Source: a virus. From it: DNA of 20,722 bases. Where the stretch lies: the IMG/VR virus record IMGVR_UViG_3300018481_000087, positions 1 to 20,722 of that record, one strand, 5' to 3'. Positions within the stretch are counted from its first letter, which is position 1, and each line of letters begins with the position of its first letter. Both the position numbers and the translations under genes were made by a program. Positions 1 through 20,722 of this stretch are shown piece after piece. Below the pieces are notes generated by a model. That model made no database searches and had not been told where the DNA came from. It saw only the letters and a program-made list of their open reading frames with translations.

Positions 1-954
1 AGCTTGCTCGTTAGCGTATGTTGTGTAGCTGGAATCAAGCTCGTCGTATGTTGCGCCGGTCGCCTCTATTTCAATCGTTCCTCCATGGAGGGCAGACCAT
101 TCTATTTCACAGTTGACAGACGCCTCCCATTCACCGACCCCGGTGTCCATGGAGGAGCTCTCTTCCCCGATCAGGTTGAAGGCAGCATCGACAATAACGT
201 TCATGATGCCGTTGGTTGGGTCTGGGCTGAACTCTATGTTCGGAGCCGAGGGAGGAGTGAGGGACTGAATGAACTCTGGACCTTCCTGCCACCCGCTGTC
301 CACTCCATAGGCATCCATTACCCTGCCGATGACACGGTACGTTCCAGAACTGTCCAGGTCAACGCCTACCCTTTGGCGGAATACCTCAGACGAGGCGAAC
401 CAGTCCTCCATCTGCCAGGTGGCAATCGCCATCCAGCCTGGATCATCCCAGTCGAACTCTGCGTCGTCGTAGTTGTTGTCTGTGAACACGGCCAGCTTGT
501 ACGCTCGTTGACCGGGAGCAGTCCACCTGATGAGGGGGCGGCTGTCAAGGCTCGGAGTCTCCACGTTCAAGGTCATGACTGCCGCCGCTCTCGGGACGAA
601 CACTTGCCAGGCGCTCGCCGGACCCTCCTGGGCAGCAGCGTTCCTGAACTGCATTCTCCACTGATACACGGTGTCAGCGGTCCACGAGCCTGGAACGACT
701 ATTTCTACTTCGTCGTTGTCTTCAATACTTGCGATAGCAGTGCGCAGTGTCGGCGTCGAGGTCCATGTGTTTGCATCTATGAGATACTGAACCGGGCCGA
801 CGATGGGACTGATCTGCTGACGCATCAGGTAGTAGGCTCCGGCGTCTTCGGCGGTGGGAGCGTTGTACCGCGCCCTGAAGGTGATCGGGTTTACGAAGGA
901 GCCTCTTCCGCTGACTGGCTCTAGGAGAGTGGGTGCGTATGGTGCAGTCATCAT
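1..954 (-). CDS. Minor tail protein with fibronectin III-like domains (C-terminus beyond left edge)
   Basis: The minus strand is open from an ATG at 954 to the window edge: 318 codons, no stop, so the C-terminus is missing. The start lies in an ATGATGA junction and overlaps the tape measure stop by four bases, which suggests translational coupling. The residues look like successive beta-sandwich modules: about 5-120 (ending with a YQWRMQFRN strand and GPASAW), about 124-232 (RPLIRWTAPGQRAYKLAVF, then TYRVIGRVMDAYG) and a third from about 234 (PPSAPNIEFSPDP). This Pro-rich linker plus alternating-strand pattern is typical of fibronectin III-like repeats in phage minor tail proteins and adhesins. 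The place directly after the tape measure is where a distal tail or baseplate protein is expected, so a tail-tip structural role is inferred; host-surface binding is possible but not shown. I see no enzyme motif. The plus-strand frame over the same bases is a shadow. Confidence 0.85.
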   Translation of the reverse strand, partial: MMTAPYAPTLLEPVSGRGSFVNPITFRARYNAPTAEDAGAYYLMRQQISPIVGPVQYLIDANTWTSTPTLRTAIASIEDNDEVEIVVPGSWTADTVYQWRMQFRNAAAQEGPASAWQVFVPRAAAVMTLNVETPSLDSRPLIRWTAPGQRAYKLAVFTDNNYDDAEFDWDDPGWMAIATWQMEDWFASSEVFRQRVGVDLDSSGTYRVIGRVMDAYGVDSGWQEGPEFIQSLTPPSAPNIEFSPDPTNGIMNVIVDAAFNLIGEESSSMDTGVGEWEASVNCEIEWSALHGGTIEIEATGATYDELDSSYTTYANEQA

Positions 955-3900
955 GAAACCCTTGTGGTGATTCCGGCTACGACATTAGCTAGAGCTTCTT
1001 CAATGGCGTTCTCGACATCTCGGATCGTTAGGTTGCTGCTTGCCGGGTCGAACACTAGCTCGATGTTGTCCACTTGGAGATTGACGTTGTTCACATTGCC
1101 TTGTACGGTGCCGATGGTGTTCGCCGCATGCTCTCCGGCGTATCCACTGCTGATTGCGTCGATGTCTGCCATGGAGCTGTTGATGAAGTCGATCCCGGAC
1201 TGTCCCATCCCGGCGATGGACTCCGCGAACGAGAGTGACTGTGGCCCCTGAGCGATGAGGTCCCTCAGGAAGTCTGGGTCTATGCCCATGCTCTCAAGGT
1301 TGCGTAGAGAGTCAACCCACCTTTGGGTTCCCTCCCTCATATGAGAATAGAATCCCTCGACCTGGCGGAGCGAAACAGTAGCCTCGTCTCCGAAAGCGCT
1401 GATCAAGCTAGTGGCGGCGGTGATCGGGTCTTGGACGGAGGCCATCACTGAGGAGACCGCATCGCCAACTTGAGTGATCCAGTCCTTATAGGTTCGTTGC
1501 TGCTCATCCTGGATTTCGTTCAGCTCTTCCGTGATGCTTGTCCACTCATTGCTGTACTTGTCGTATTCCTTGAGAAGCTTCTTCAGATAATCGCGATACT
1601 TGGTAAGAGAGATGGCGTCCATCCGCCACTTGTTTCTTATTATCTCGTCCTCCTTGTCTTTCTTCGCCTGGAGGACTTCCTCTGCGGCTTCCTTCGCCTC
1701 CTCTTCCTCCTGCTTCATGGCGTCCTTGACGCTTTTGATCTGACTCTGGATAGAGATCCATTCTGAGGAATATTTCTTCTCTGCCGCGAGCCGCTTGTTC
1801 AAGACAGCGATGTAATCATCGCCCGATGTCGTGGCAGATTCATAGAGGTAATCCTCCATGCGAACCTGCTGCTCCTTCGCCTTGACGACCTCAGAGATGA
1901 ACTCCTTGAATCTATCAAGATCTTGGTACAGATTCAGAGCTGCGTCAGCTTCTTTCTGGCCGATGAGTTCAACGGCTTGCAGGTAAGTGTCAGTTAGATC
2001 CTGAAGCTCCTGAGTGGGATCCTGCCCCGTCATGGCCCCGCCATAAAGGATGGCAGCCGACAAGCGATCATTGCCCTTCAGCATTCGATTGAATGTTTGC
2101 AGGTTGGCCGTTGCCCCGGCGTTCTCGATAACCGATTGAGCGAAGTATTGCCTGATCGCATTGTTGACCGGAGCATTGAGTTCACGGTTCACAGCCGCAG
2201 ACTGCTCTGGGGTGAGCTTGAAGCGGTCGTCAGGAGCACCACCACCACCGCCGCCTCCACCGCCACCGCCACCGCCACCACCACCGAGGGTACGATTACC
2301 GAATCCGGCTACTAGGTTCTTGAGGAAGCCATCGGTGAGGGCCTTGGCTTTGTTTGCCGCTGCGTTCTTCGCAACGTTGGACGCCGCGATGAGAGCCTGC
2401 CCATGACTCATGGTTCCGAAGTCTCCCCTGAGGGCACCACCCTTACCGGGGCTCGAGTTTACGGCAACGTTGATCTGGATTCCTGCTACTGCCACCGACC
2501 CGTTGACAGCGTTCAGTCCTCCCATGACAGCCCCGAGCTCTCCGAGAACTGCGTCTCCGCCAATGAGATCGATTGTGGTGCTGATGTCAGGCGGTAGCAG
2601 GTTCATCATCTCGAGCATGGCGTAGACCTGCGCAGCCGACAGGCCAGCCTCATGCCCAGCGGCGCTGAGGCCGTAGACAAAGTCCCAAAGTGCTTGAGCG
2701 CCCGCTTCGGAACTTCCTGTTTGTTGGGCAACGGCTTCCGCATACTGAATGGCTTGACCCCTGGCAGTATCCAGAATCCCAATGATCTTGGAGCCCTGCT
2801 CGCTGTACTGGTCGAGGCTGAAGCCTCCTTCATCAACAGCCCTGTTCAGCTCCCAGATGCTATTCGCCAGATCACCCTGAGCCTTCTTGACAGAGATGTT
2901 CCCGCCTGTCATTCGATCCAGGATGGTCGACATCGCATCCAGCTTGTCGCTGGTGGTGCTGGCATTGTCACCTAGAACTGCAACAGCGTGAGCAACATCT
3001 CCGGCTGCTGTTCCTGCCAGCTTGGCAGTCCTGTCGGTCAGGCTGAGAGCGCTGTTGAGTTTCTTCTCTGAGTCGGCAGCCGCTTCGTTCGCTTCCTTCA
3101 GCCCAAGGACCCTCGCTATGACGTCTGCCAGAATGGAGTCCCGTTGCTTGTAGAGATCCTGCTCTTCCTGGTCGGTCATGGGTCCGCCTTCGCGGATCTT
3201 CTGCATGACGATGAGAAGCGCTTCTAGCTCTGTTGAACCTTCGGCTCCAAGTTGCTGCATGTGTCCGAGCATGTCATCGAACGAGATTCCGGTGTTGTAG
3301 CTGAGAAGCTGCGCAGATATGGTGAGGTCCTGCATCTCACCTTCGACGCCCAGCAATGCAGCGTACATCTGGTGACTGTTCTCAACAGTGTTCTCGGTCA
3401 TGGGCGTCAGCAACTCGAACGCACTCTTGAATGCCTTCCCCCAGCCGCCGTATCCGCCCTCTTTGCTCTTGTCCATCTCCTCTCGGAGGCGCTCCATCTC
3501 CAATGTGAGTTGCTGAGCGCTGCCGATGACCGAGCTAGAGAACGTGTCAGCCATGGCGGCGGCTTCTTGCTTAGCATTCTGAAGTCCTGTGTACGTGGCC
3601 GTCAGGGCGATGCCCAGCAACGTAAGAACACCAATCGTCAGCGTGAGCTGGCCAGCCAACTTCAACATAGCTATCCGTGCTGCGGGGGCTCCTGCGATGA
3701 TCGTTCCGAAGAACTTTCTAAGGATCGGAATGGTCCCACCCAGCTTGCCGTGAGCAGCAACGTAGGCAGTCACTCCAGGGAGCTGACTCGCCAGCTTGGT
3801 GGTCGTCAGCATCATGAGAGCCTTGTTGAACAGCCTGACCTTGACGGTGTGCAGAAGAAGCACTCCTCCGACCCCGGCGATGATCGGACCGAGCAACGTC

Positions 3901-5087
3901 ATCCCGGCTACCACCTTGCGGATCGGCTCCGGCATATCGTTCATGATCCCGATAGATTCTTTGGCCGTCCCGATGAACACGTTCATGACGGGGATGACCA
4001 ACTCTGCCATCTCGTACCGGAAGTCTCTCCACTCGTTCGATAGGAGCTGGAGTTGCGCAGCCTGCGTCTGGAGCTGCTTCTCAAGCGCAGCCGAAGTGGC
4101 CCCGCCCGTCTTGGCAGAATTGTTGAAGTCTTCATTAGCCTGAGCGAAGGTCTCTGCCTGGCTGGTGACCAGCGGCAACACTGCACGAAGCGCATCTGCT
4201 TCATTGAAGATCTTTGCCAGTCCGGATTCGGTTCTTCCAGACGCCTCCCACAGGGCGTTCAGGGCTTCCTCGAATCCGAGGGCGTCGAGGGCAGTGGTCG
4301 CTGAGGCGTAACCCATGTCCTTGAACGCCTCGGTCATTTCTTCAGTAGGCTTCAAGAAGCTGCGCAGTGTGGCAGCGTAAGCCGTGCTCGCTCTGGCAGC
4401 GGTCTCGCCGCCCTTCGTCAACGTAGCGATGGCGGCAGCCGCAGTTCCGACGCTGATGCTCAGGGTCGCTGACATGGCCGACCAGTCGCCGATGTTCTCA
4501 ACGAACTCGCTGGCTGTCATCTGGCCGACTTCAATAGCTCGGAACAAGGTGTCGGTGACTCCCGTTGCCGCACCCGCCCCGAGTTGATAGGCGTTCATGA
4601 TTGAGGTTGTGCCACGAACAGCGGAGCCCATGTCGGTCAACCCGGCGACAGCGAAGCGCGCCGATGCATCGAGCACTTTGACGGCATCTGCTCCTTGGAA
4701 GCCTGCAGAGTTCACCTCGTACAGACCCCTGGCGAGTTCATCTGCCGTCTTAGGAATCTCCCGGGCCATCTCTCGGACGGCATCTGTAGCTGCCGTCAAG
4801 GACATCTTCGAAGAATCTGCCACAGTGGACACGTTCGCCATGGCAGTCTCTAGAGTTCGATACGATGACGCAGACTCCAGTGCTGCCACTCCAGAAGCCA
4901 CCAGCCCCACTCCGAAGCCGATCACCATCTTCCTGGTGAGCTCAATGGCGGTGCTGGCCGACCCAGCCACCAGCGACATCACGCCGAGGCTTTCGGTCAG
5001 GCCCTCTGTCGCCCCGGTCGCCTTCTTGAAGGCGCTCACGAAGGAGGAGCTATCGGCTTCTAGTCCTATTCCTATTTCATCTGCCAT
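951..5087 (-). CDS. Tail tape measure protein
   Basis: This 1378-aa protein should set tail length and line the tail tube until DNA ejection. Residues about 75-260 resemble the TP901-type tape measure core (YRTLETAMANVSTVAD, later GFQGADAVKVLDASARFAVAG and MTASEFVENIGDW). Hydrophobic segments lie near 54-70, 391-412 and 478-503, as expected for a protein that contacts the host membrane at infection. A run of 16 glycines at 935-950 splits the protein, and the part after about 1075 is rich in Lys and Glu with coiled-coil character. It is the longest gene in the window and follows the frameshifted chaperone pair, the canonical position. The ATG at 5087 is preceded by GCGAGGTC, a fair ribosome binding site, and overlaps the chaperone extension by 16 bases. 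At roughly 0.15 nm per residue (a rule of thumb), the tail would be about 200 nm. No lytic enzyme domain was recognised. Confidence 0.95.
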   Translation of the reverse strand: MADEIGIGLEADSSSFVSAFKKATGATEGLTESLGVMSLVAGSASTAIELTRKMVIGFGVGLVASGVAALESASSYRTLETAMANVSTVADSSKMSLTAATDAVREMAREIPKTADELARGLYEVNSAGFQGADAVKVLDASARFAVAGLTDMGSAVRGTTSIMNAYQLGAGAATGVTDTLFRAIEVGQMTASEFVENIGDWSAMSATLSISVGTAAAAIATLTKGGETAARASTAYAATLRSFLKPTEEMTEAFKDMGYASATTALDALGFEEALNALWEASGRTESGLAKIFNEADALRAVLPLVTSQAETFAQANEDFNNSAKTGGATSAALEKQLQTQAAQLQLLSNEWRDFRYEMAELVIPVMNVFIGTAKESIGIMNDMPEPIRKVVAGMTLLGPIIAGVGGVLLLHTVKVRLFNKALMMLTTTKLASQLPGVTAYVAAHGKLGGTIPILRKFFGTIIAGAPAARIAMLKLAGQLTLTIGVLTLLGIALTATYTGLQNAKQEAAAMADTFSSSVIGSAQQLTLEMERLREEMDKSKEGGYGGWGKAFKSAFELLTPMTENTVENSHQMYAALLGVEGEMQDLTISAQLLSYNTGISFDDMLGHMQQLGAEGSTELEALLIVMQKIREGGPMTDQEEQDLYKQRDSILADVIARVLGLKEANEAAADSEKKLNSALSLTDRTAKLAGTAAGDVAHAVAVLGDNASTTSDKLDAMSTILDRMTGGNISVKKAQGDLANSIWELNRAVDEGGFSLDQYSEQGSKIIGILDTARGQAIQYAEAVAQQTGSSEAGAQALWDFVYGLSAAGHEAGLSAAQVYAMLEMMNLLPPDISTTIDLIGGDAVLGELGAVMGGLNAVNGSVAVAGIQINVAVNSSPGKGGALRGDFGTMSHGQALIAASNVAKNAAANKAKALTDGFLKNLVAGFGNRTLGGGGGGGGGGGGGGGGAPDDRFKLTPEQSAAVNRELNAPVNNAIRQYFAQSVIENAGATANLQTFNRMLKGNDRLSAAILYGGAMTGQDPTQELQDLTDTYLQAVELIGQKEADAALNLYQDLDRFKEFISEVVKAKEQQVRMEDYLYESATTSGDDYIAVLNKRLAAEKKYSSEWISIQSQIKSVKDAMKQEEEEAKEAAEEVLQAKKDKEDEIIRNKWRMDAISLTKYRDYLKKLLKEYDKYSNEWTSITEELNEIQDEQQRTYKDWITQVGDAVSSVMASVQDPITAATSLISAFGDEATVSLRQVEGFYSHMREGTQRWVDSLRNLESMGIDPDFLRDLIAQGPQSLSFAESIAGMGQSGIDFINSSMADIDAISSGYAGEHAANTIGTVQGNVNNVNLQVDNIELVFDPASSNLTIRDVENAIEEALANVVAGITTRVS
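2238..2285 (-). repeat. GGT/GGC codon run encoding 16 consecutive glycines in the tape measure
   Basis: The bases encode Gly 935-950 of the tape measure with mixed GGT, GGC and GGA codons, so the run is degenerate at DNA level rather than a pure triplet repeat. It separates the hydrophobic N-terminal two thirds from the charged C-terminal part and may act as a flexible linker. Simple repeats of this type can vary in copy number between relatives. Confidence 0.95.
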
Positions 5088-8285: not shown

Positions 8286-11200
8286 TCAGTATCCTACGTT
8301 GTAGCCGAACTCTTCCAAGCTGTAGAGGATGGCGTTGTGCACTGCCATCCTCAGTTCTGGCTCTGTGTGTATTGCGATGGCGAATGCTTCCGCCATGAAC
8401 TCTGCGGCGTTGGTTCCTGCGTAGTACGACCCTACGTTGTCCATGATCAACTCGTCGCCGATCTGGTGAAAGAAGTCTTCGGTCTGCCCCATGAACCAGC
8501 TATAGTCCTTGCCGAGAATCCCGGCGAACGCATCCGGCCCGTCCGCCCTCAAGAATTCAAAGTATTCATCCCCGAAGAAGAACGGCTTCATCCATTCCCT
8601 AACTCCGTCCGGGTTCAGATCTGTAGTGTCGAACCTGATCCAGTCCTCGGTGAATCCTTCCATCATACGGTTCCACATGATCATCTTCTGCTCAGAGGTT
8701 AGGTTCATCGTCAGGTGGTGGCCCAGCTCGTGTACAGCAACGTATCCGTCTGAAGTTGCCACTGGATTGAAGTGATTGACGTCTACCAGCCTTTGAATCT
8801 CCTGACCGATGTCCAGTCTATTGTCCATGTAATAGTTGGAAATAGTTAACTCGTTCTTCATGGCGTCGTTCAGACCGAACGTTCCGTCACCCAGCGGAGC
8901 GATCCGGATGTTCTTAGGCGGCTTGAACTTTAGACCGTTGCGTTCAAGATAGTCGAAGGCCGTGACCAGCTCGGACAGACCCCTCTGTGACCGGAACCAG
9001 TGATCGTCATCCGTTATCGGAAGGATGTAGTCGAAGCTGAGGTAGTCCATCCATGCGGCGTCTCCCGGCAGCACCTCTTTCATGTGGGCACGGAGGCGCT
9101 CTTCTGTCCAGCGCTTGCCCGTCCTTGGGTCTCTGAACGGAATGTTCTGGAATGCATGTATCGGGTTGGCCCAGTCCAGAGCCCAGTCATCAGGATCAAT
9201 CCAGTCCTCAAACTCAATCATGGGGAAGTTGAAGCCCGGAGTGTAGCCCACTCCAGTGAGATCTATCTCTGCGTAAGGGTTGACCTCCTTGATGGCACGG
9301 ATGAGATCGTCAACGGTCTCCTTGCTGAACACCGTCTTGACGCTGGCTTCCACCCCATCGAACCAGTTGCTGATGTCGACCAAGATCAGGCTCGGGTCCT
9401 TGCGGTAGTCTTTGAAGTCTTGCTTCCTGGCCACCAGTGATCGCATCTCACTGAGACCCGCGTCGGTGGAGAGATCGATGTCCAAGTTGAGGAAGCCCTT
9501 GTGGTCTGCTCCGTCGGCGATGCGATCCAGGATCTCGTTCCAGCCAACGGTCATCTCGTCTTGCACGTAGCGCTTGAGGTCTACAAGGGTGCGCCTGTAA
9601 TCCATGCCCAGAGACTTCGTCGCTTCGAGGATGGATCCCTTCATCTTGGCGAAGCCCAAGAACTCTTGGATCCTCTCAGGGGTCTTCAGGCTTATCGGTA
9701 TGCCGCCCCACACATCTGGCAGGATGGCGAGCGACGTCAGCTTTGGACGCTCAATGGGACCGATGATGGCCCGCAGTTGGTCCACCGTCATCGAGCTGTT
9801 CGCAAGGTATCCTCTCTCACGAGCCATGGCGATGAGCTGTTGCTTGGTCCCGGGAGCATCGCGAGTGCCTGTGAACACACGACGGTATCCCCTGATGAGA
9901 TCATTGTCTGGCCGCAGCTTGATGGCGTAGCTGTCGATGCCGTCGCTCAGCATGCGGATGCTGGCGGTGATCGGTCCATTGCGGAACAGGTCAATGGTCC
10001 AGATCATTTCTTCAGGAAGGTCCTTCAGCTTGGCGGCAGCCCACTGCTTGAACTCCCCATCGGACAGGCGAGAGCCTTCCTTGATCAAGTCGTTGATGGT
10101 ACCAGCGCTCAAGCGCCACCGCAGACTCAGCGCCCGCAAGTAGGCAACGTCGGGGAAGACGTGCACTATCGGAACGATCTTGCCGCTCTCGGCAGCGATG
10201 CTGAAGTGAATAGGGTTGCCCATGAAGCTCATGCGAGGCAGCAGAGCGTTATAGATATCTTGCGTCGTGATCCTCGGGGTCTTCATTACGTGACCCAGAT
10301 GGTTCTTCTGATAGACCACGTTGAGCTTCTCGCGAAAGTCTTGCCCACGCATCTTGATGTACAGAGTCTTGGCCAGATCCCTGCGCCCTTCGGCGGTGAT
10401 ACCAATAGAGAAGCGGAGGCTCCCGAGATCGCCGCTCAGACCACTGCGAATCCACGGGATCGGCTCAATGGCGGTTGCCAAGAGCTTGATCATCTCTACC
10501 TCTGCGAGCTGAGGATTCTTGGCAAACGTCTCCCTGATGATCTTGTCTATCTTCTTCAGATCTGTCAGGAGATCCTGCCCACGCCCCATATGAGTCATGA
10601 TCTTCGGGATATACGAAGTGCCCAGCAACCGGCGGAGCATTGCTTCGTCCTGGGCTGCCGCACCCACTGAGCGCATCACCTGAGCGTTGCGGTCGGTGGT
10701 CCACCTCACATAGTTCGCATAATCCTCGAAGCGATTGAGCAGTTGGCCTTTGCTGACCGTTTGATCAGAGAACTTCAGGACGGTCGCCTGCGTCTTGGTC
10801 AAGTGGACCTCGTGAGAGTCAGGGCGCTCCGCTATGGCCGCGATCTTTCTCTCAACGCCCTGCATCGTCTTCGTGCGAAGGTCGTCGATTGCAATGCTGG
10901 TCAGCTCTCGCCCCTGTTGAGCTAGAACTATGGCCTCACTTCTTTCGTAGGGATTCGCCCATCGGTTGAGAATTTTTTGAGCGTTTTCCCCTAAAGCGAT
11001 TTCTCTATCGTCCAGGATGGCCCGAATCACCGTATGCGTGAGTTGGTTGTTGTACGCAAACGAACCTGCACCGCCTACCTGCCCTAGAACGCTGCCCGTC
11101 TTCGCCATGGCCGCGAGGGCATTACGGTCGCGGGCACCTGTCATCTTCTCGATGAGATCCCTGGATTTCCCGCTCCTGGGTCCGTCTGGCAGTCCTGCGA

Positions 11201-11999
11201 AATCACGCTGGCAGTACGGGTGAGCGTATGGGATCACTTCCTTGACTTGGACGACCTTCCCGTTGGCTTTCTCTGAATCCCGGTGATTGGCCCATCCACA
11301 GTCGGTTCCGTCACTTACGATGACCCACTCAACGCCAGATTCCTGCAATCCGAGGAGATACGCCCTATTTCCAACATCTTTCTGAGCTGTCTTGGCGAGC
11401 ATGGACCAGTACTCATCAGCATTGCGGTTCGAGGCCACTGTTCCTCGTGAATGCTGACCTTTCTTGCGGCGGCGCAGGAATCGCACCTTCGGCTCCTCCG
11501 ACGTGAACTGCCCGATCTCCTGGAGCAGCTCCTTCCTGGCAGCTTCGCCTTTCTTGATCGCGTCGTGGTAGAATTCCTTCTGTTTGGGGCTCAAACCTCC
11601 GGATTCAACCTCTTGCTTCGCGATCCGGAGGTTCTTGTTGATCTTGCCGAGGAGTTCCTCTTTGCCACGGCGCTGCATGGCTCCATGCGACCACGTCTCT
11701 ATCTCGCTGATGCCATGATTCGCATTGCGGAGGAAGCGCTTCCTGATGGTGTTGGACCGCCCGCTGGCGGACTTGGACATATTGGTCGGATACTCGGCAT
11801 TATAAGAATCCCGGTACAACTTAGAGAGATCTTGGCGAGCCCACTTGTCAGCGAACTGACGGGCCTCGTTCAGAACCCTGTTGATCTCTAGCTGGCTTCC
11901 GCCTTCTTCAACAAGGTTCTGAACGGTGAGGGTGTACTCCCGCATGGCCTTCTCAAACTGTTCATTGACAGCCTTGTCGATCTCTTGCGTACCGGGCAT
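8286..11999 (-). CDS. Giant MuF minor capsid protein with C-terminal zinc metallopeptidase domain
   Basis: This 1237-aa protein has three regions. Residues 1 to about 300 are a helical segment ending in a MuF-type minor capsid domain, recognised by DGTDCGWANH (230-239), ANGKV and HPYCQRDF (260-267). Residues about 310-1000 match nothing I know, apart from a short SAP-like stretch near 717-746 (MTVDQLRAIIG). The last part is a gluzincin-like metallopeptidase: HELGHH at 1090-1095 gives the two zinc histidines and the catalytic glutamate, and NAAEFMAEAFA at about 1198-1208 offers Glu1200 or Glu1204 as third ligand. MuF proteins sit inside the head near the portal and may enter the host with the DNA; known long forms carry toxin or enzyme domains (polyvalent and MuF-toxin proteins). 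Delivery of a protease to the cell is therefore an inference. An alternative is head maturation proteolysis. The gene starts one base after the adaptor stop, with a weak ribosome binding site, so coupling is likely. Its place after the capsid genes instead of next to the portal is unusual. Confidence 0.88.
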   Translation of the reverse strand: MPGTQEIDKAVNEQFEKAMREYTLTVQNLVEEGGSQLEINRVLNEARQFADKWARQDLSKLYRDSYNAEYPTNMSKSASGRSNTIRKRFLRNANHGISEIETWSHGAMQRRGKEELLGKINKNLRIAKQEVESGGLSPKQKEFYHDAIKKGEAARKELLQEIGQFTSEEPKVRFLRRRKKGQHSRGTVASNRNADEYWSMLAKTAQKDVGNRAYLLGLQESGVEWVIVSDGTDCGWANHRDSEKANGKVVQVKEVIPYAHPYCQRDFAGLPDGPRSGKSRDLIEKMTGARDRNALAAMAKTGSVLGQVGGAGSFAYNNQLTHTVIRAILDDREIALGENAQKILNRWANPYERSEAIVLAQQGRELTSIAIDDLRTKTMQGVERKIAAIAERPDSHEVHLTKTQATVLKFSDQTVSKGQLLNRFEDYANYVRWTTDRNAQVMRSVGAAAQDEAMLRRLLGTSYIPKIMTHMGRGQDLLTDLKKIDKIIRETFAKNPQLAEVEMIKLLATAIEPIPWIRSGLSGDLGSLRFSIGITAEGRRDLAKTLYIKMRGQDFREKLNVVYQKNHLGHVMKTPRITTQDIYNALLPRMSFMGNPIHFSIAAESGKIVPIVHVFPDVAYLRALSLRWRLSAGTINDLIKEGSRLSDGEFKQWAAAKLKDLPEEMIWTIDLFRNGPITASIRMLSDGIDSYAIKLRPDNDLIRGYRRVFTGTRDAPGTKQQLIAMARERGYLANSSMTVDQLRAIIGPIERPKLTSLAILPDVWGGIPISLKTPERIQEFLGFAKMKGSILEATKSLGMDYRRTLVDLKRYVQDEMTVGWNEILDRIADGADHKGFLNLDIDLSTDAGLSEMRSLVARKQDFKDYRKDPSLILVDISNWFDGVEASVKTVFSKETVDDLIRAIKEVNPYAEIDLTGVGYTPGFNFPMIEFEDWIDPDDWALDWANPIHAFQNIPFRDPRTGKRWTEERLRAHMKEVLPGDAAWMDYLSFDYILPITDDDHWFRSQRGLSELVTAFDYLERNGLKFKPPKNIRIAPLGDGTFGLNDAMKNELTISNYYMDNRLDIGQEIQRLVDVNHFNPVATSDGYVAVHELGHHLTMNLTSEQKMIMWNRMMEGFTEDWIRFDTTDLNPDGVREWMKPFFFGDEYFEFLRADGPDAFAGILGKDYSWFMGQTEDFFHQIGDELIMDNVGSYYAGTNAAEFMAEAFAIAIHTEPELRMAVHNAILYSLEEFGYNVGY

Positions 12000-16710: not shown

Positions 16711-18069
16711 CTATCTCCGATTCTTGAGACGTTCGTCTTTGAGTTTGTCAGATCTGATGACTTGATTCCCGATCATCAACTCCCACATACACCATACCAT
16801 TGCATCCATACGGTCTGGAGACCAAGCTGGGTCTGGATCGATGTGATCCCATGTTGTCATCTGGTCTTCCAGGAGATCAAGACTGTCAACGATGTGGCAG
16901 CGGTGTTGAGAGAACAAGTTGGCGATCGGCTCCGCACGCTTGGCCTTTCCGCGAGTGGCATGAACCACCTTGACGGGGACGTTCGGATCGATGCCGTGGA
17001 TAACATGCTTCACCATGTCTCCACCATTGTTGATCTCTGCCACCATCAGGTCGGCCTTGTATTCGTAATACGCCTTGATGGCTGCTTTGGCCCAGTCGGT
17101 TGGAGTGCCGTGACAGCTCACGTCGTCCATTACGAAGCCGTGCGGACGCTCTGGCGTCTTTGCCCACGGTACGTACTCTGGCAGAGATCTCACCATGCCG
17201 CCCACGACGATGCCATGCTCGTCACCGTTCTCACTGGCAGCAGGGTCAACTGCCACGACGACACGATCCAGGTCGGGAAGGTCCATCTGGCTGACACGGC
17301 TGGAGTCGAGCCCATCCATGGTCCACAGTGCGTTCTCAACATCCTCGAGCAGCTCACCCTCGAGTTCCTGCCGACCCATGCGAGTGCCGCCATAGTCACT
17401 CCACAGAGCCTCCTTCACTTCCTCGTTGAGGTATGGATTCTCCGTCATCTTGCCCTTGGTAACGACGACCTTCGGATCGTCGTTGACCAACTTGCGGATC
17501 AGCTTTCGTGTTCTCGGCGTTGTAGAGGCAATGGCATGCGGCCGAGGCCCGCTGCGCAAGCCATAGCGAATCTGCTGCCAGGACTCGTCGAGGTACCTCC
17601 AGGCAGCCATTTCCTCACACCAGACTAGGCATCTGTTACCGCCAGCGCGGAAACGCTCAACGTCATTGGGGCTGTTGGAGCCGAACAGCTTTGCCTCAGA
17701 TCCGTTGGACCACTTTGCGATGATGCCGCCAGGCTTGTTGAGAACTCTGACTCCTTTGTCGTGCAAGCGCAATCCGCTGGGGCCTTCAACGCAACTGGTG
17801 ACGGCGTCTCCGAGGGTCGGTGCCACGATGCTGATCCAGTGACCACCAGGAACATCCGGCAGGCATGGCGGACCGTGAACATGGTCGTGAACGTACTTGG
17901 CGGCTGCGGCTGTCTTGCCGCTACCACGGCCACCGAACAAGATCCACAGCAACCACGGAGGGTCTGGAGGGATCTGGTGCGGGAGGGGCGTCCAATCAAT
18001 GTCACTCGTTGGAGAGAGAATGTGCAGCGCATGGTCGAACGCAGCAAAGTAATCCTCATCCAGTGACAT
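16711..18069 (-). CDS. terL: Terminase large subunit (packaging ATPase and nuclease)
   Basis: The 452-aa motor protein packages DNA into the prohead and cuts it. ATPase motifs: Walker A GGRGSGKT at 46-53, Walker B RCLVWCEE at 146-153, coupling motif ASTTPR at 181-186. Nuclease motifs (RNase H fold): VVAVDPAAS with Asp275, LMVAEINNGGDM with Glu345, and SPDRMDAMVW with Asp419 and Asp422. All expected acidic residues are present, so it should be active. The length is usual. ATG 18069 is the first possible start after an in-frame stop; no Shine-Dalgarno-like sequence precedes it, and a GC-rich hairpin lies 20 bases upstream, so its translation may be unusual or coupled. No gene for a small terminase subunit is recognisable next to it; it could be upstream of the window or be one of the small frames at 18159-18508. 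Confidence 0.96.
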   Translation of the reverse strand: MSLDEDYFAAFDHALHILSPTSDIDWTPLPHQIPPDPPWLLWILFGGRGSGKTAAAAKYVHDHVHGPPCLPDVPGGHWISIVAPTLGDAVTSCVEGPSGLRLHDKGVRVLNKPGGIIAKWSNGSEAKLFGSNSPNDVERFRAGGNRCLVWCEEMAAWRYLDESWQQIRYGLRSGPRPHAIASTTPRTRKLIRKLVNDDPKVVVTKGKMTENPYLNEEVKEALWSDYGGTRMGRQELEGELLEDVENALWTMDGLDSSRVSQMDLPDLDRVVVAVDPAASENGDEHGIVVGGMVRSLPEYVPWAKTPERPHGFVMDDVSCHGTPTDWAKAAIKAYYEYKADLMVAEINNGGDMVKHVIHGIDPNVPVKVVHATRGKAKRAEPIANLFSQHRCHIVDSLDLLEDQMTTWDHIDPDPAWSPDRMDAMVWCMWELMIGNQVIRSDKLKDERLKNRR

Positions 18070-18088
18070 GGCGACATACTACACAGAA

Positions 18089-18133
18089 GAGCCCGCCCTC
18101 GGACCTGCATGTCAGAGGCCGGAGAGCGGGCTC
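18089..18133 (-). terminator. Strong GC-rich inverted repeat just upstream of terL
   Basis: GAGCCCGCTCTC pairs with GAGGGCGGGCTC (12 bp, one G-U pair) around a loop of 21 bases; the 3' arm is followed by TTCTGTGT, a weak U-rich run. It ends 20 bases before the terL start codon. It may be an intrinsic terminator that separates the upstream structural gene from the packaging operon, a structure limiting terL translation, or part of a packaging recognition site. The sequence alone does not decide between these. Confidence 0.55.
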
Positions 18134-18158
18134 GTCTTGGGGGTTCCGCATGAAGCGG

Positions 18159-18311
18159 TTAGCGCAAGCGCATAGAAGTCCCGAGAGACTTCCGAGCGCC
18201 GACCTGCATCAAACCGACGCGACCCTCGCTAGACGAGAGGTAGATTCCGGCTGGATACGGGTGTGGAACCCTGATCTTGACCCTGGAACCCTGGACGGGG
18301 TGGGTGCGCAT
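18159..18311 (-). CDS. Possible 50-aa basic protein, unknown function
   Basis: The frame starts in a TGATG junction with the 65-codon gene upstream and ends at TAA 18159. The product (MRTHPVQGSRVKIRVPHPYP at the start) is basic, with no recognised motif. The coupled start and use of codons common in neighbouring genes (GTC, AAG, CGC, ATC) support it; shortness and lack of a family argue against. It ends about 90 bases before terL, with the hairpin between. Confidence 0.42.
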   Translation of the reverse strand: MRTHPVQGSRVKIRVPHPYPAGIYLSSSEGRVGLMQVGARKSLGTSMRLR

Positions 18312-18508
18312 CACTTCACCTTTCTACTGTCGCCGAGCATTCCCACGCTCTGGGCGGGGTTGGTGCTGGACGTTCGCACGCTCTGGCGTGCATTGGTCGC
18401 CGGGAGGCGGTCGATACTGCGCTTCGACTGGAAGAATCTCTTCGACCGTGATGCTGAACTACCGACTGCCATTGACGTGTTCTTGATACTGGCTCCGAAA
18501 CCGGGCAT
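18311..18508 (-). CDS. Small basic Ser/Arg-rich protein with strong ribosome binding site, unknown function
   Basis: The 65-codon frame begins at ATG 18508, preceded by GCAGGAGGTGACAGC: an almost perfect Shine-Dalgarno sequence at a good distance. The product is basic (SRSKRFFQSKRSIDRLPATN) and Ser-rich, without signal peptide, membrane segment or familiar motif. It lies between the Trp-repeat protein (62 bases upstream) and terL. Codons agree with those of neighbouring genes. The same frame is open further upstream into the end of the Trp-repeat gene, but the ribosome binding site marks this start. A DNA-binding or packaging accessory role could be imagined from position and charge, but nothing shows it. 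Confidence 0.65.
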   Translation of the reverse strand: MPGFGASIKNTSMAVGSSASRSKRFFQSKRSIDRLPATNARQSVRTSSTNPAQSVGMLGDSRKVK

Positions 18509-18541
18509 TGCTGTCACCTCCTGCGGGTAGCCTACTCTGTG

Positions 18542-18559
18542 CCGTGCCGGTGCGCACGG
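18542..18559 (-). other. Short inverted repeat after the Trp-repeat gene
   Basis: CCGTGC and GCACGG form a six-base-pair stem around a six-base loop, 10 bases after the Trp-repeat stop. No U-tract follows, so it is a poor terminator; it may protect the mRNA end or be chance. Confidence 0.3.
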
Positions 18560-18569
18560 TATTCGGTCA

Positions 18570-20722
18570 CTACAGTGCGAGCCATGGGATGATGGACCAT
18601 TGAGAGCCATCCCAGATCTTGACGCGACACGGCTGCCACTCCGCACCTGTCCAGACGTTGATTTCGCCACCAGCCGTGATGAAGGTCGCAGTCCAAGTTC
18701 CCCATTGACCCGATGCCACGGCCTGAGTGGAGCCCTGAGTTGAGGCCTCCGCCACCCACTCCGCTATCGAGATCTCTGCCTGAGCATGAACGGTGTGTGT
18801 CGCCGGGGCGGCTGCGCTCCACGTACCGAAGTTGGAAGCTCCGCTGGCACCGACGCTCTTCGTCGTCGTTGAGAGGCCTTGCCACGCTCCCCAACTTGTT
18901 GAAGCTGTCGCCGATGAGCTCCTCGACGCCGATGCTGTACCGCTCCAGATCCATGTGCCGAGAGCCGTTGCACTGATCCGGAGACTAGCTGTTGCGGAGG
19001 AGGCCCAGCCTCCCCACGAGCCCTGACAGCTTGCGAATGTGAAACCTTCTCCGCTGGCGACGGCTTCAGACGACCATCCTGTTGTGAGTGCTGCTGTCGC
19101 GAGGACTTTCTTCGTAGTGGTGACCGAAGCTGTCCAGACCGTTGTGGAAGCCGCCGTGGCAGACACTCGCTTCGTGGTGGTGGCTGTGCCAGACCACGCA
19201 ATGTTCAGCGCCGCTGTGGCCGAACGGTTGACCAAGGTCGTGACGCTGGCAGCCCATCCTGCCCAGAATCCAGCGGAGGTGGCCGTGTGGGTGGTGAGCG
19301 CCGTAGAAGTTGCCGACCAGCTTCCGATTGATGAAAGCAATGTTCCGCGAACGGTCTTCGTGGTTGTTGCGGCAGCTACCCAGCCTCCCCATGAGGCGCT
19401 CGCTGTTGCGAACACTTCGGTTCCAGGAGCTCCTGCGGTTGCTACTGCCGAAAGGGTTGATGCAAAGGAGGAGGAAGCCTGAGCATTCACTGTCTTGGAG
19501 GCGGTTACTACTGCCGTCCATCCTCCCCATGAGGCAACGAATGTTCCAGATACGTTCTTTGTTGCCGTGGATGAGGCAGACCATGCTCCATATGAACCAA
19601 CGAATGTTCCTGGCACGCTCTTTGTTGCGGTTTCTGAAGCGGTCCAGCTTCCCCATGAACCGAGACAAACAGCGTTGACCGTCGGCTCGGCCGGAGGCAC
19701 CAGGATCGTCTTCGCGACCCATGGCCGGGAAGTGTTCGTGAACGTGCCGGGGTCTTCAGCCGTCGTCGCTGTCAGAGGCTTGTAGCTGACACCCAGCCCG
19801 ACCGACGTAGTCGAGCTGGCCGACTTCGTGAGGATGCCGGTGTAGTAGCCGCTCGGGTTGGCCGAGATGACATCGGCGGCGTTCGTCATGTCGAGGGCGC
19901 AAGCGACGACCGACAACCATTCTTTCGACGCGACCGTCCCCGAAGCTGGCGGGTTGGCGTTGCCGGTGGCGCTCGTCGCCGCAGTCGGGATGACGATGTC
20001 GGTGGAAACGTTCGTGACGCCGTGCGTCCCCGCTTTGATCGCCATGACGGCACACGAATAGTCGTTGGCGTTTGTCGCTGCGATCGACAACGTGTCGGAG
20101 CCGTCGGCGATCAAGGCGTAGACGGCAAGGCGGCAGTTCGTGCTCACCACCTCATCGGATAACTGCACCCAACCGTTGCCAGGCGAGGCTGTCCAGGCGG
20201 TCGTGGTTGTGTCGTTGGCTGCGAACGCGAGCAGAAGGTCGCCGGTCGTCACCCCCGACGGGAGCGTGACCGAGAACGCTGGGGCAGCATCGGTGCCGTT
20301 GGTCGCCGCCGACATGGAGCGAACTTGGGGAGAGGCAGACGTGTCATAGGGGCCAAGGCGAGCAGTGGCATTCCCTAGGGAGTCCATCCTGACCGTGAAC
20401 TCGGGCGACTGGACACGGCCATACGTGATGCGCCCGACCTGCGTTCCAATATTGGCGGATGTACCCGATGCTTCCTGTATCGGTGTTGCCGAGTTGCCCG
20501 CATACAGAGCGACCCAATAAGCGACAGGGGAAGCGCTCAGGTTGAGCTCGAGCTCCCACCGGTACACGTTGCCCAGGATCATCGGCCCGGCAGCGGTGAG
20601 GTCGGCGATGAGGGCTTGGTCGGTTCCTGCCAACCGGAGCTGACCAGTGGACAACGCCCGAAGGTCGCAGACCCTGGTGCCACCGGCTGCATCCTGTTGA
20701 AGCAAGACGAACGGTGACGACG
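18570..20722 (-). CDS. Trp-repeat virion surface or fibre protein (N-terminus beyond right edge)
   Basis: The frame is open to the right edge, so the N-terminus is missing; a TTG at 20705 is only the first start-like codon inside the window, and residue numbers here count from it. Residues 1-124 are strand-rich (NVYRWELELNLSASPVAYW, TYGRVQSPEFTVRMDSLG) and recall a concanavalin/LamG-like lectin sandwich. Residues about 125-340 form a second beta domain (PSGVTTGDLLLAFAAN, WVQLSDEV, SCAVMAIKAG, PWVAKTILVPP) of a type common in phage and cell-surface proteins. Residues 341-682 are about 16 repeats of 20-21 residues, each with a Trp core and Ala/Ser/Thr strands. The C-terminus (NVWTGAEWQPCRVKIWDGSQW) is a Trp-rich motif of phage tail proteins. 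A role in host or carbohydrate binding, or as a capsid or tail fibre, is inferred. No enzyme motif is seen. The gene lies ahead of terL on the same strand. Confidence 0.82.
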   Translation of the reverse strand, partial: SSPFVLLQQDAAGGTRVCDLRALSTGQLRLAGTDQALIADLTAAGPMILGNVYRWELELNLSASPVAYWVALYAGNSATPIQEASGTSANIGTQVGRITYGRVQSPEFTVRMDSLGNATARLGPYDTSASPQVRSMSAATNGTDAAPAFSVTLPSGVTTGDLLLAFAANDTTTTAWTASPGNGWVQLSDEVVSTNCRLAVYALIADGSDTLSIAATNANDYSCAVMAIKAGTHGVTNVSTDIVIPTAATSATGNANPPASGTVASKEWLSVVACALDMTNAADVISANPSGYYTGILTKSASSTTSVGLGVSYKPLTATTAEDPGTFTNTSRPWVAKTILVPPAEPTVNAVCLGSWGSWTASETATKSVPGTFVGSYGAWSASSTATKNVSGTFVASWGGWTAVVTASKTVNAQASSSFASTLSAVATAGAPGTEVFATASASWGGWVAAATTTKTVRGTLLSSIGSWSATSTALTTHTATSAGFWAGWAASVTTLVNRSATAALNIAWSGTATTTKRVSATAASTTVWTASVTTTKKVLATAALTTGWSSEAVASGEGFTFASCQGSWGGWASSATASLRISATALGTWIWSGTASASRSSSATASTSWGAWQGLSTTTKSVGASGASNFGTWSAAAPATHTVHAQAEISIAEWVAEASTQGSTQAVASGQWGTWTATFITAGGEINVWTGAEWQPCRVKIWDGSQWSIIPWLAL
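18666..19685 (-). repeat. About 16 tandem 60-63-bp repeats encoding a Trp motif
   Basis: The repeats encode units like SWGGWxAxxTTTKxVxATA. The last Trp of each unit falls at residues 354, 375, 396, 442, 463, 484, 504, 524, 544, 568, 587, 608, 629, 650 and 671 (numbered from TTG 20705), with one Trp-less unit near 417. The period is 20 or 21 residues. DNA copies are diverged, so the array is old or under selection at protein level, not a recent expansion. Confidence 0.88.

Follow-up and report, generated by a model that had tools for sequence, protein, structure and literature searches.

A tryptophan-anchored 21-residue repeat in a putative tail-fibre protein of uncultivated tailed phages

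An ORF at one end of the uncultivated virus record IMGVR_UViG_3300018481_000087 encodes an array of 16 units of about 21 residues, 15 of which carry an anchor tryptophan, and four further groups of uncultivated phage contigs carry this repeat too. Because of the period of 21, the anchor Trp and the recurrence of the repeat in these other phage groups, we read the array, at about even confidence, as a two-sheet beta-solenoid with an Ala/Gly core that would serve as shaft in a receptor-binding or tail-fibre protein, from a phage that is tailed and probably infects an actinobacterium; the shaft role, the length of the rod and the host are what we infer. Fibre shafts set the reach and the stiffness with which a binding tip is presented, and only a few phage fibre-shaft folds are known. 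Should the reading hold, the 21-residue repeat with its near-fixed core pattern would be a new and possibly modular shaft element, the repeat profile would help to annotate tail proteins that are now called 'hypothetical', and the array would offer a natural test of a curli-like beta-solenoid that lacks Asn/Gln ladders.

Organization of the array-bearing ORF

The window, by which we mean the whole uncultivated virus entry of 20,722 bp that was analysed, is probably a fragment that lacks most of the genome, and the array-bearing ORF has lost its 5' end and start codon at the contig end (Table 1).

Table 1. Coordinates of the array-bearing ORF, its parts and other genes of the window
Feature	Coordinates	Strand	Basis or remark
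Array ORF, at least 716 aa	18570..20720	-	Open frame from contig end to stop
N-terminal region, residues 1-127	20340..20720	-	Beta-rich by eye
Second N-terminal domain, residues 128-345	19686..20339	-	Common to the fibre-like protein of G005
Trp-repeat array, 16 units, residues 353-690	18651..19664	-	Periodicity, unit list, independent profile
Degenerate Trp-less unit, residues 418-440, inside array	19401..19469	-	Unit list; profile score
C-terminal tip, GGEINVWTGAEWQPCRVKIWDGSQWSIIPWLAL	18573..18671	-	Read from translation; overlaps last unit
Terminase large subunit	16711..18069	-	PHROGs E 4e-23; next gene downstream of array ORF
1237-aa protein	8286-11999	-	After capsid gene; conserved N-terminal part is PHROG 37388
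Tape measure protein	951..5087	-	PHROGs E 2e-33; Pfam PhageMin_Tail

An earlier, sequence-only reading had located the array at positions 18666-19685, which agrees with the unit boundaries to within about 20 bases, and had set it between two lectin-like domains and a Trp-rich tip. The position between these parts stands, but the lectin nature of the N-terminal domains finds no library match. Residues 1-127 match nothing in Pfam, PHROGs, NCBIfam or the PDB sequences, and among the N-terminal domains it is only residues 128-345 that have a detectable relative, in the single related phage record G005 (tblastn E 1e-20, with alignment); part of the N-terminal half of the ORF is 43% identical to this G005 protein. 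In G005, FN3 comes after the shared domain, at the place where the window ORF has the Trp array, which looks like a domain swap. The window (at 20722) and G005 (L131) both end within the same fibre-type gene. Kinship of the window N-terminal domain with those of L133 and L096, two array-bearing records described below, was not supported when the domains were compared. A short motif, [VI]W-x-G-x-x-W, occurs twice in the C-terminal tip. The ORF is without a match to a known tail-fibre family in PHROG, Pfam or NCBIfam, and the simplest reading is that the protein would act as a tail fibre or adhesin.

The repeat unit

The units lie within residues 346-690 of the ORF. Successive anchor Trp residues are mostly 21 residues apart, with spacings of 20 and 23 also occurring, and residue-identity autocorrelation is highest at lag 21 (z 6.8) and rises again at lags 42 (z 4.0) and 63 (z 3.3), so that the regular 20-21-residue period proposed from the sequence is borne out. 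The proposed count of about 16 Trp units also holds, save that one of the 16 lacks its Trp; this degenerate unit has the lowest profile score in the array (-21.5). One aromatic per turn describes the anchor Trp of the other 15 units, but in many units there are two Trp, as W-G-x-W, or a degenerate version of this pair. The repeat consensus is T-[IA]-x-x-x-W-G-x-W-x-A-T-A-x-A-x-V-x-x-P-A, and the residue at +2 from the anchor Trp is Ala, Gly or Ser in 15/15 window units. Across 83 homologous units the pattern is W3, A5 (84%), A7 (86%) and A9 (71%) with Thr or Ser in between, and units vary in length mainly in two predicted bends.

Since whole-sequence scores from hmmsearch were spoiled by composition bias, a composition-matched profile test was used, with a profile of 21 positions built from units of other contigs only. 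The window array scores 31.3 on this profile against -7.8 +/- 4.4 for its shuffles (n=1000, maximum 14.1; z 9.0); shuffles in which W and G are kept fixed score 3.1 +/- 5.1 (maximum 22.5), which places the window array at z 5.5. Units differ from one another most at the third position of codons, and where residues are identical the codon is a different one in 54% of cases; the repeat is thus conserved at the protein level.

Adjacent units of the window are not more similar than distant ones (permutation p 0.24), and recent unit duplication is therefore not supported as the origin of the period, which appears to be maintained and not just the product of recent copying; clear recent duplication is seen in L096 only (p 0.0005). 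These findings bear on a rival reading in which the Ala/Ser/Thr-rich array would be mostly disordered and serve as a flexible linker, perhaps with glycans attached, and repeat expansion would have left the Trp period as a by-product. Ala, Ser and Thr do account for more than half of the array residues and AlphaFold confidence is low, but the position-specific Ala/Thr alternation is kept across five unrelated phage groups and the window period is maintained among units that are no more alike as neighbours, and we consider such a linker improbable.

Related arrays in other uncultivated phages

The further arrays lie on viral contigs and were found with patterns on W-G-x-W spacing, which proved necessary for finding relatives. 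They are carried by L093/L135 (109.8 kb), L096/L139 (63 kb), L124 (7.9 kb) and L133/L137, the last pair being two records whose overlap is 99.9% identical. With the filter off, tblastn connects these arrays with each other as well as with the window, which reaches L093 at E 1e-11 in a database of 2.3 billion bases, with scores inflated by shared composition; with the filter on, the L093 array matches other phage arrays at E 3e-12 to 3e-4 and the window only at 0.04. L257 and L258 turned out to be chance matches.

The arrays adjoin phage structural genes. L093 has a tail sheath gene and is thus from a contractile-tailed phage, the neighbourhood in L096 includes a major head protein and a tail-fibre-like protein, a terminase is 3 kb away in L124, and the adjoining gene in L133 encodes an SU10-type adaptor. 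This setting, together with the FN3 and DUF4082 domains carried by the L096 proteins, argues for the fibre-shaft reading, as does a tail-fibre match in the gene directly upstream of the terminase in the related phage L003. The terminase relatives L002-L008 are without the array, and one of them has the N-terminal domain.

The L093 array has one stretch of about 27 units, and in L096 a single 1673-aa ORF holds several array stretches. The arrays of L093 and L139 are split by a LamG-like domain (judged by eye in L093) and have at their end a common C-terminal motif, LGDEAVDRxxxxxxxVWELV. In the L124 protein (L124:2-1033) a second short repeat type, TLxLRVxPPT, follows the Trp array to the end.

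Database searches

The sequence-only reading did not recognize the repeat as a named family, and we likewise found no match in Pfam, PHROG, NCBIfam or the PDB sequence entries; a profile search of the PDB gave chance-level matches only (E 0.24). Among 50,697 cultured phages there was no match at useful E-values, the best being no better than E 8; a control indicated that the low-complexity filter does not hide arrays like that of L093, while divergent arrays like that of the window could escape. Neither tblastn with the whole ORF in cultured phages nor a first scan of viral contigs returned anything. A pattern scan of prokaryote genomes of 84,980 species, which arrays as divergent as the window's own would escape, yielded 106 stretches, but translation showed no real array among them, and the matches of the first loose pattern and genome scan were mostly due to chance, in unrelated frames. 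When a profile was run on 396 genomes from a single bacterial phylum, no array turned up; that run did not include a positive control, but the same profile does find the arrays in the contigs from which it was built. Our literature search found no description of the repeat. It is apparently an undescribed family as far as its sequence goes, and we judge it to be a new repeat family with an architecture of a known kind.

Predicted structure and proposed fold

AlphaFold was applied to single chains only. With 36 homologous rows, the window array is modelled with about two strands per unit at a mean pLDDT of 52 and a pTM of 0.45, and the regular L124 array gives a pLDDT of 62 and a pTM of 0.58, with strands from Trp3 to Ala9 and within positions ~14-20. 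Among known structures the window model comes closest to CsgA of Pontibacter korlensis (Z 19.6, with an rmsd of 8.2 over 255), and further neighbours are RsaA (Z 16.6), the HK620 tailspike (15.1) and EtpA (14.4). The L124 model aligns to SufB with Z 12.1 and rmsd 3.0 over 162 residues, where for repeat proteins a Z below about 13 may mean merely a common arrangement, and also to adhesin, tailspike and pectate-lyase helices. Foldseek gave E-values that were not significant. Two short strands per unit, as had been suggested from the sequence, are thus predicted by both models, and the accompanying suggestion of a beta-solenoid or stalk agrees with the strand number and with neighbours that are mainly beta-solenoids, but the confidence of the models is low. 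Models and neighbours favour a two-sheet beta-solenoid, as support and not as proof, and this reading draws also on the core-type alternation and on the location of length variation at bends.

In the fold that we propose, one 21-residue unit would make one coil of the two-sheet beta-solenoid, passing through strand B (~14-20), the tight bend W-G-x-W, strand A (Trp3 to Ala9) and a length-variable bend (10-14). Ala and Gly at alternating positions would provide a thin core, and equivalent Trp residues would be stacked as a ladder near one edge, with Trp and Gly at the bends. The general spacing of beta-stacks is about 0.48 nm; with coils this far apart the 16 units would give a rod of about 7-8 nm, which would separate the N-terminal domains from the C-terminal tip. 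The number of units would set the reach, and longer arrays such as that of L093 would extend further.

Comparison with known repeat systems

Curlin repeats are 23 +/- 5 residues long and consist of two strands with core-facing N-psi-psi-Q, joined by X-G-X-X arcs (PMC10192328). The array shares with them its repeat length (21) and, in strands predicted at low confidence, two strands per unit; the strand-arc-strand-arc layout is the same, W-G-x-W resembles the X-G-X-X arc, and the array may work like a curlin solenoid. It differs in having neither QX10Q nor Asn/Gln ladders, in its Ala/Thr strands with Trp at the bends, and in its occurrence in phage structural contigs, whereas curlin belongs to the curli operon. 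At E up to 10, neither the ORF of the window nor the array by itself nor the array of L124 matches the Pfam curlin model. With QX10Q absent, the array is therefore curli-like in layout and no established curlin. More tentatively, the repeat may constitute an undescribed family confined to phages, in which a curli-like two-sheet beta-solenoid, with an Ala core and with Trp ladders in place of Asn/Gln ladders, gives phages of varied tail types a tail-fibre shaft that can be extended.

In triple beta-spiral shafts each short repeat has two strands, a tight bend at Gly or Pro, and a loop that varies. Known virus fibre shafts are mostly trimers, and the adenovirus and reovirus fibres share a core among three chains. 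The array is like the triple beta-spirals of these two viruses in its short two-strand repeats, tight Gly/Pro bend, variable loop and proposed place in a fibre shaft, and is unlike them in its period of 21 with W-G-x-W. The two strands of the unit, its tight bend with a conserved Gly and its variable bend would also suit an obligate trimeric shaft of this or a similar kind, with a core common to three chains. The single-chain models, however, already form a closed repeating arrangement that aligns, at low confidence, to monomeric solenoids, and we regard the trimeric shaft as unlikely.

Choline-binding repeats are about 20 residues long, and Trp is common in sugar-binding sites. The array resembles these repeats (CW_binding_1) in length and in being rich in aromatic residues, and differs in its Ala/Thr/Ser-rich composition; Pfam CW_binding_1 does not match it at E up to 10. 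Choline-binding repeats form a solenoid of beta-hairpins (PMC4471590). The array might similarly be a folded multivalent binding surface whose exposed Trp rows would hold on to glycans in the wall or capsule of the host, as choline- and glucan-binding repeats do, and related arrays are accompanied by DUF4082 and by a LamG-like domain (the latter in L093, by eye). In the Trp3-x-Ala5-x-Ala7 alternation, however, Trp3 shares a face with the small residues of core type, an arrangement that suggests burial, and the array matches no binding-repeat family; a glycan-binding surface therefore seems to us quite doubtful.

The favoured solenoid shaft has a further parallel in the HK620-type tailspikes, beta-solenoid rods in phage receptor-binding proteins that are among the structural neighbours of the window model. 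Tailspike coils are irregular and longer, and tailspikes are trimers; the array has no sequence match to them or to other PDB chains.

Gene neighbourhood

The array ORF sits among phage structural genes. Along the minus strand it is followed by the genes for the terminase large subunit, portal, scaffold, major capsid protein, the 1237-aa protein, small proteins, the tail tube and the tape measure protein; the tape measure gene identifies the phage as long-tailed. The terminase is nearest to those of Streptomyces phages OnionKnight and mu1/6 (~49%), the capsid protein is nearest to those of Arthrobacter phages (~40%), and G+C is 54-61%, from which an actinobacterial host is likely.

Near the C-terminus of the 1237-aa protein is VAVHELGHHLTMN, an HExxH motif of zinc-peptidase type, and Pfam Matrixin matches the protein only at E 0.09; the protein might combine a role in the head with an enzymatic tail. 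The ~500 bp between the array ORF and the terminase gene (18070-18569) are without a convincing gene, and two weak terminator-like sites are present on the minus strand, at 18105-18090 and, inside the terminase gene, at 17959-17943.
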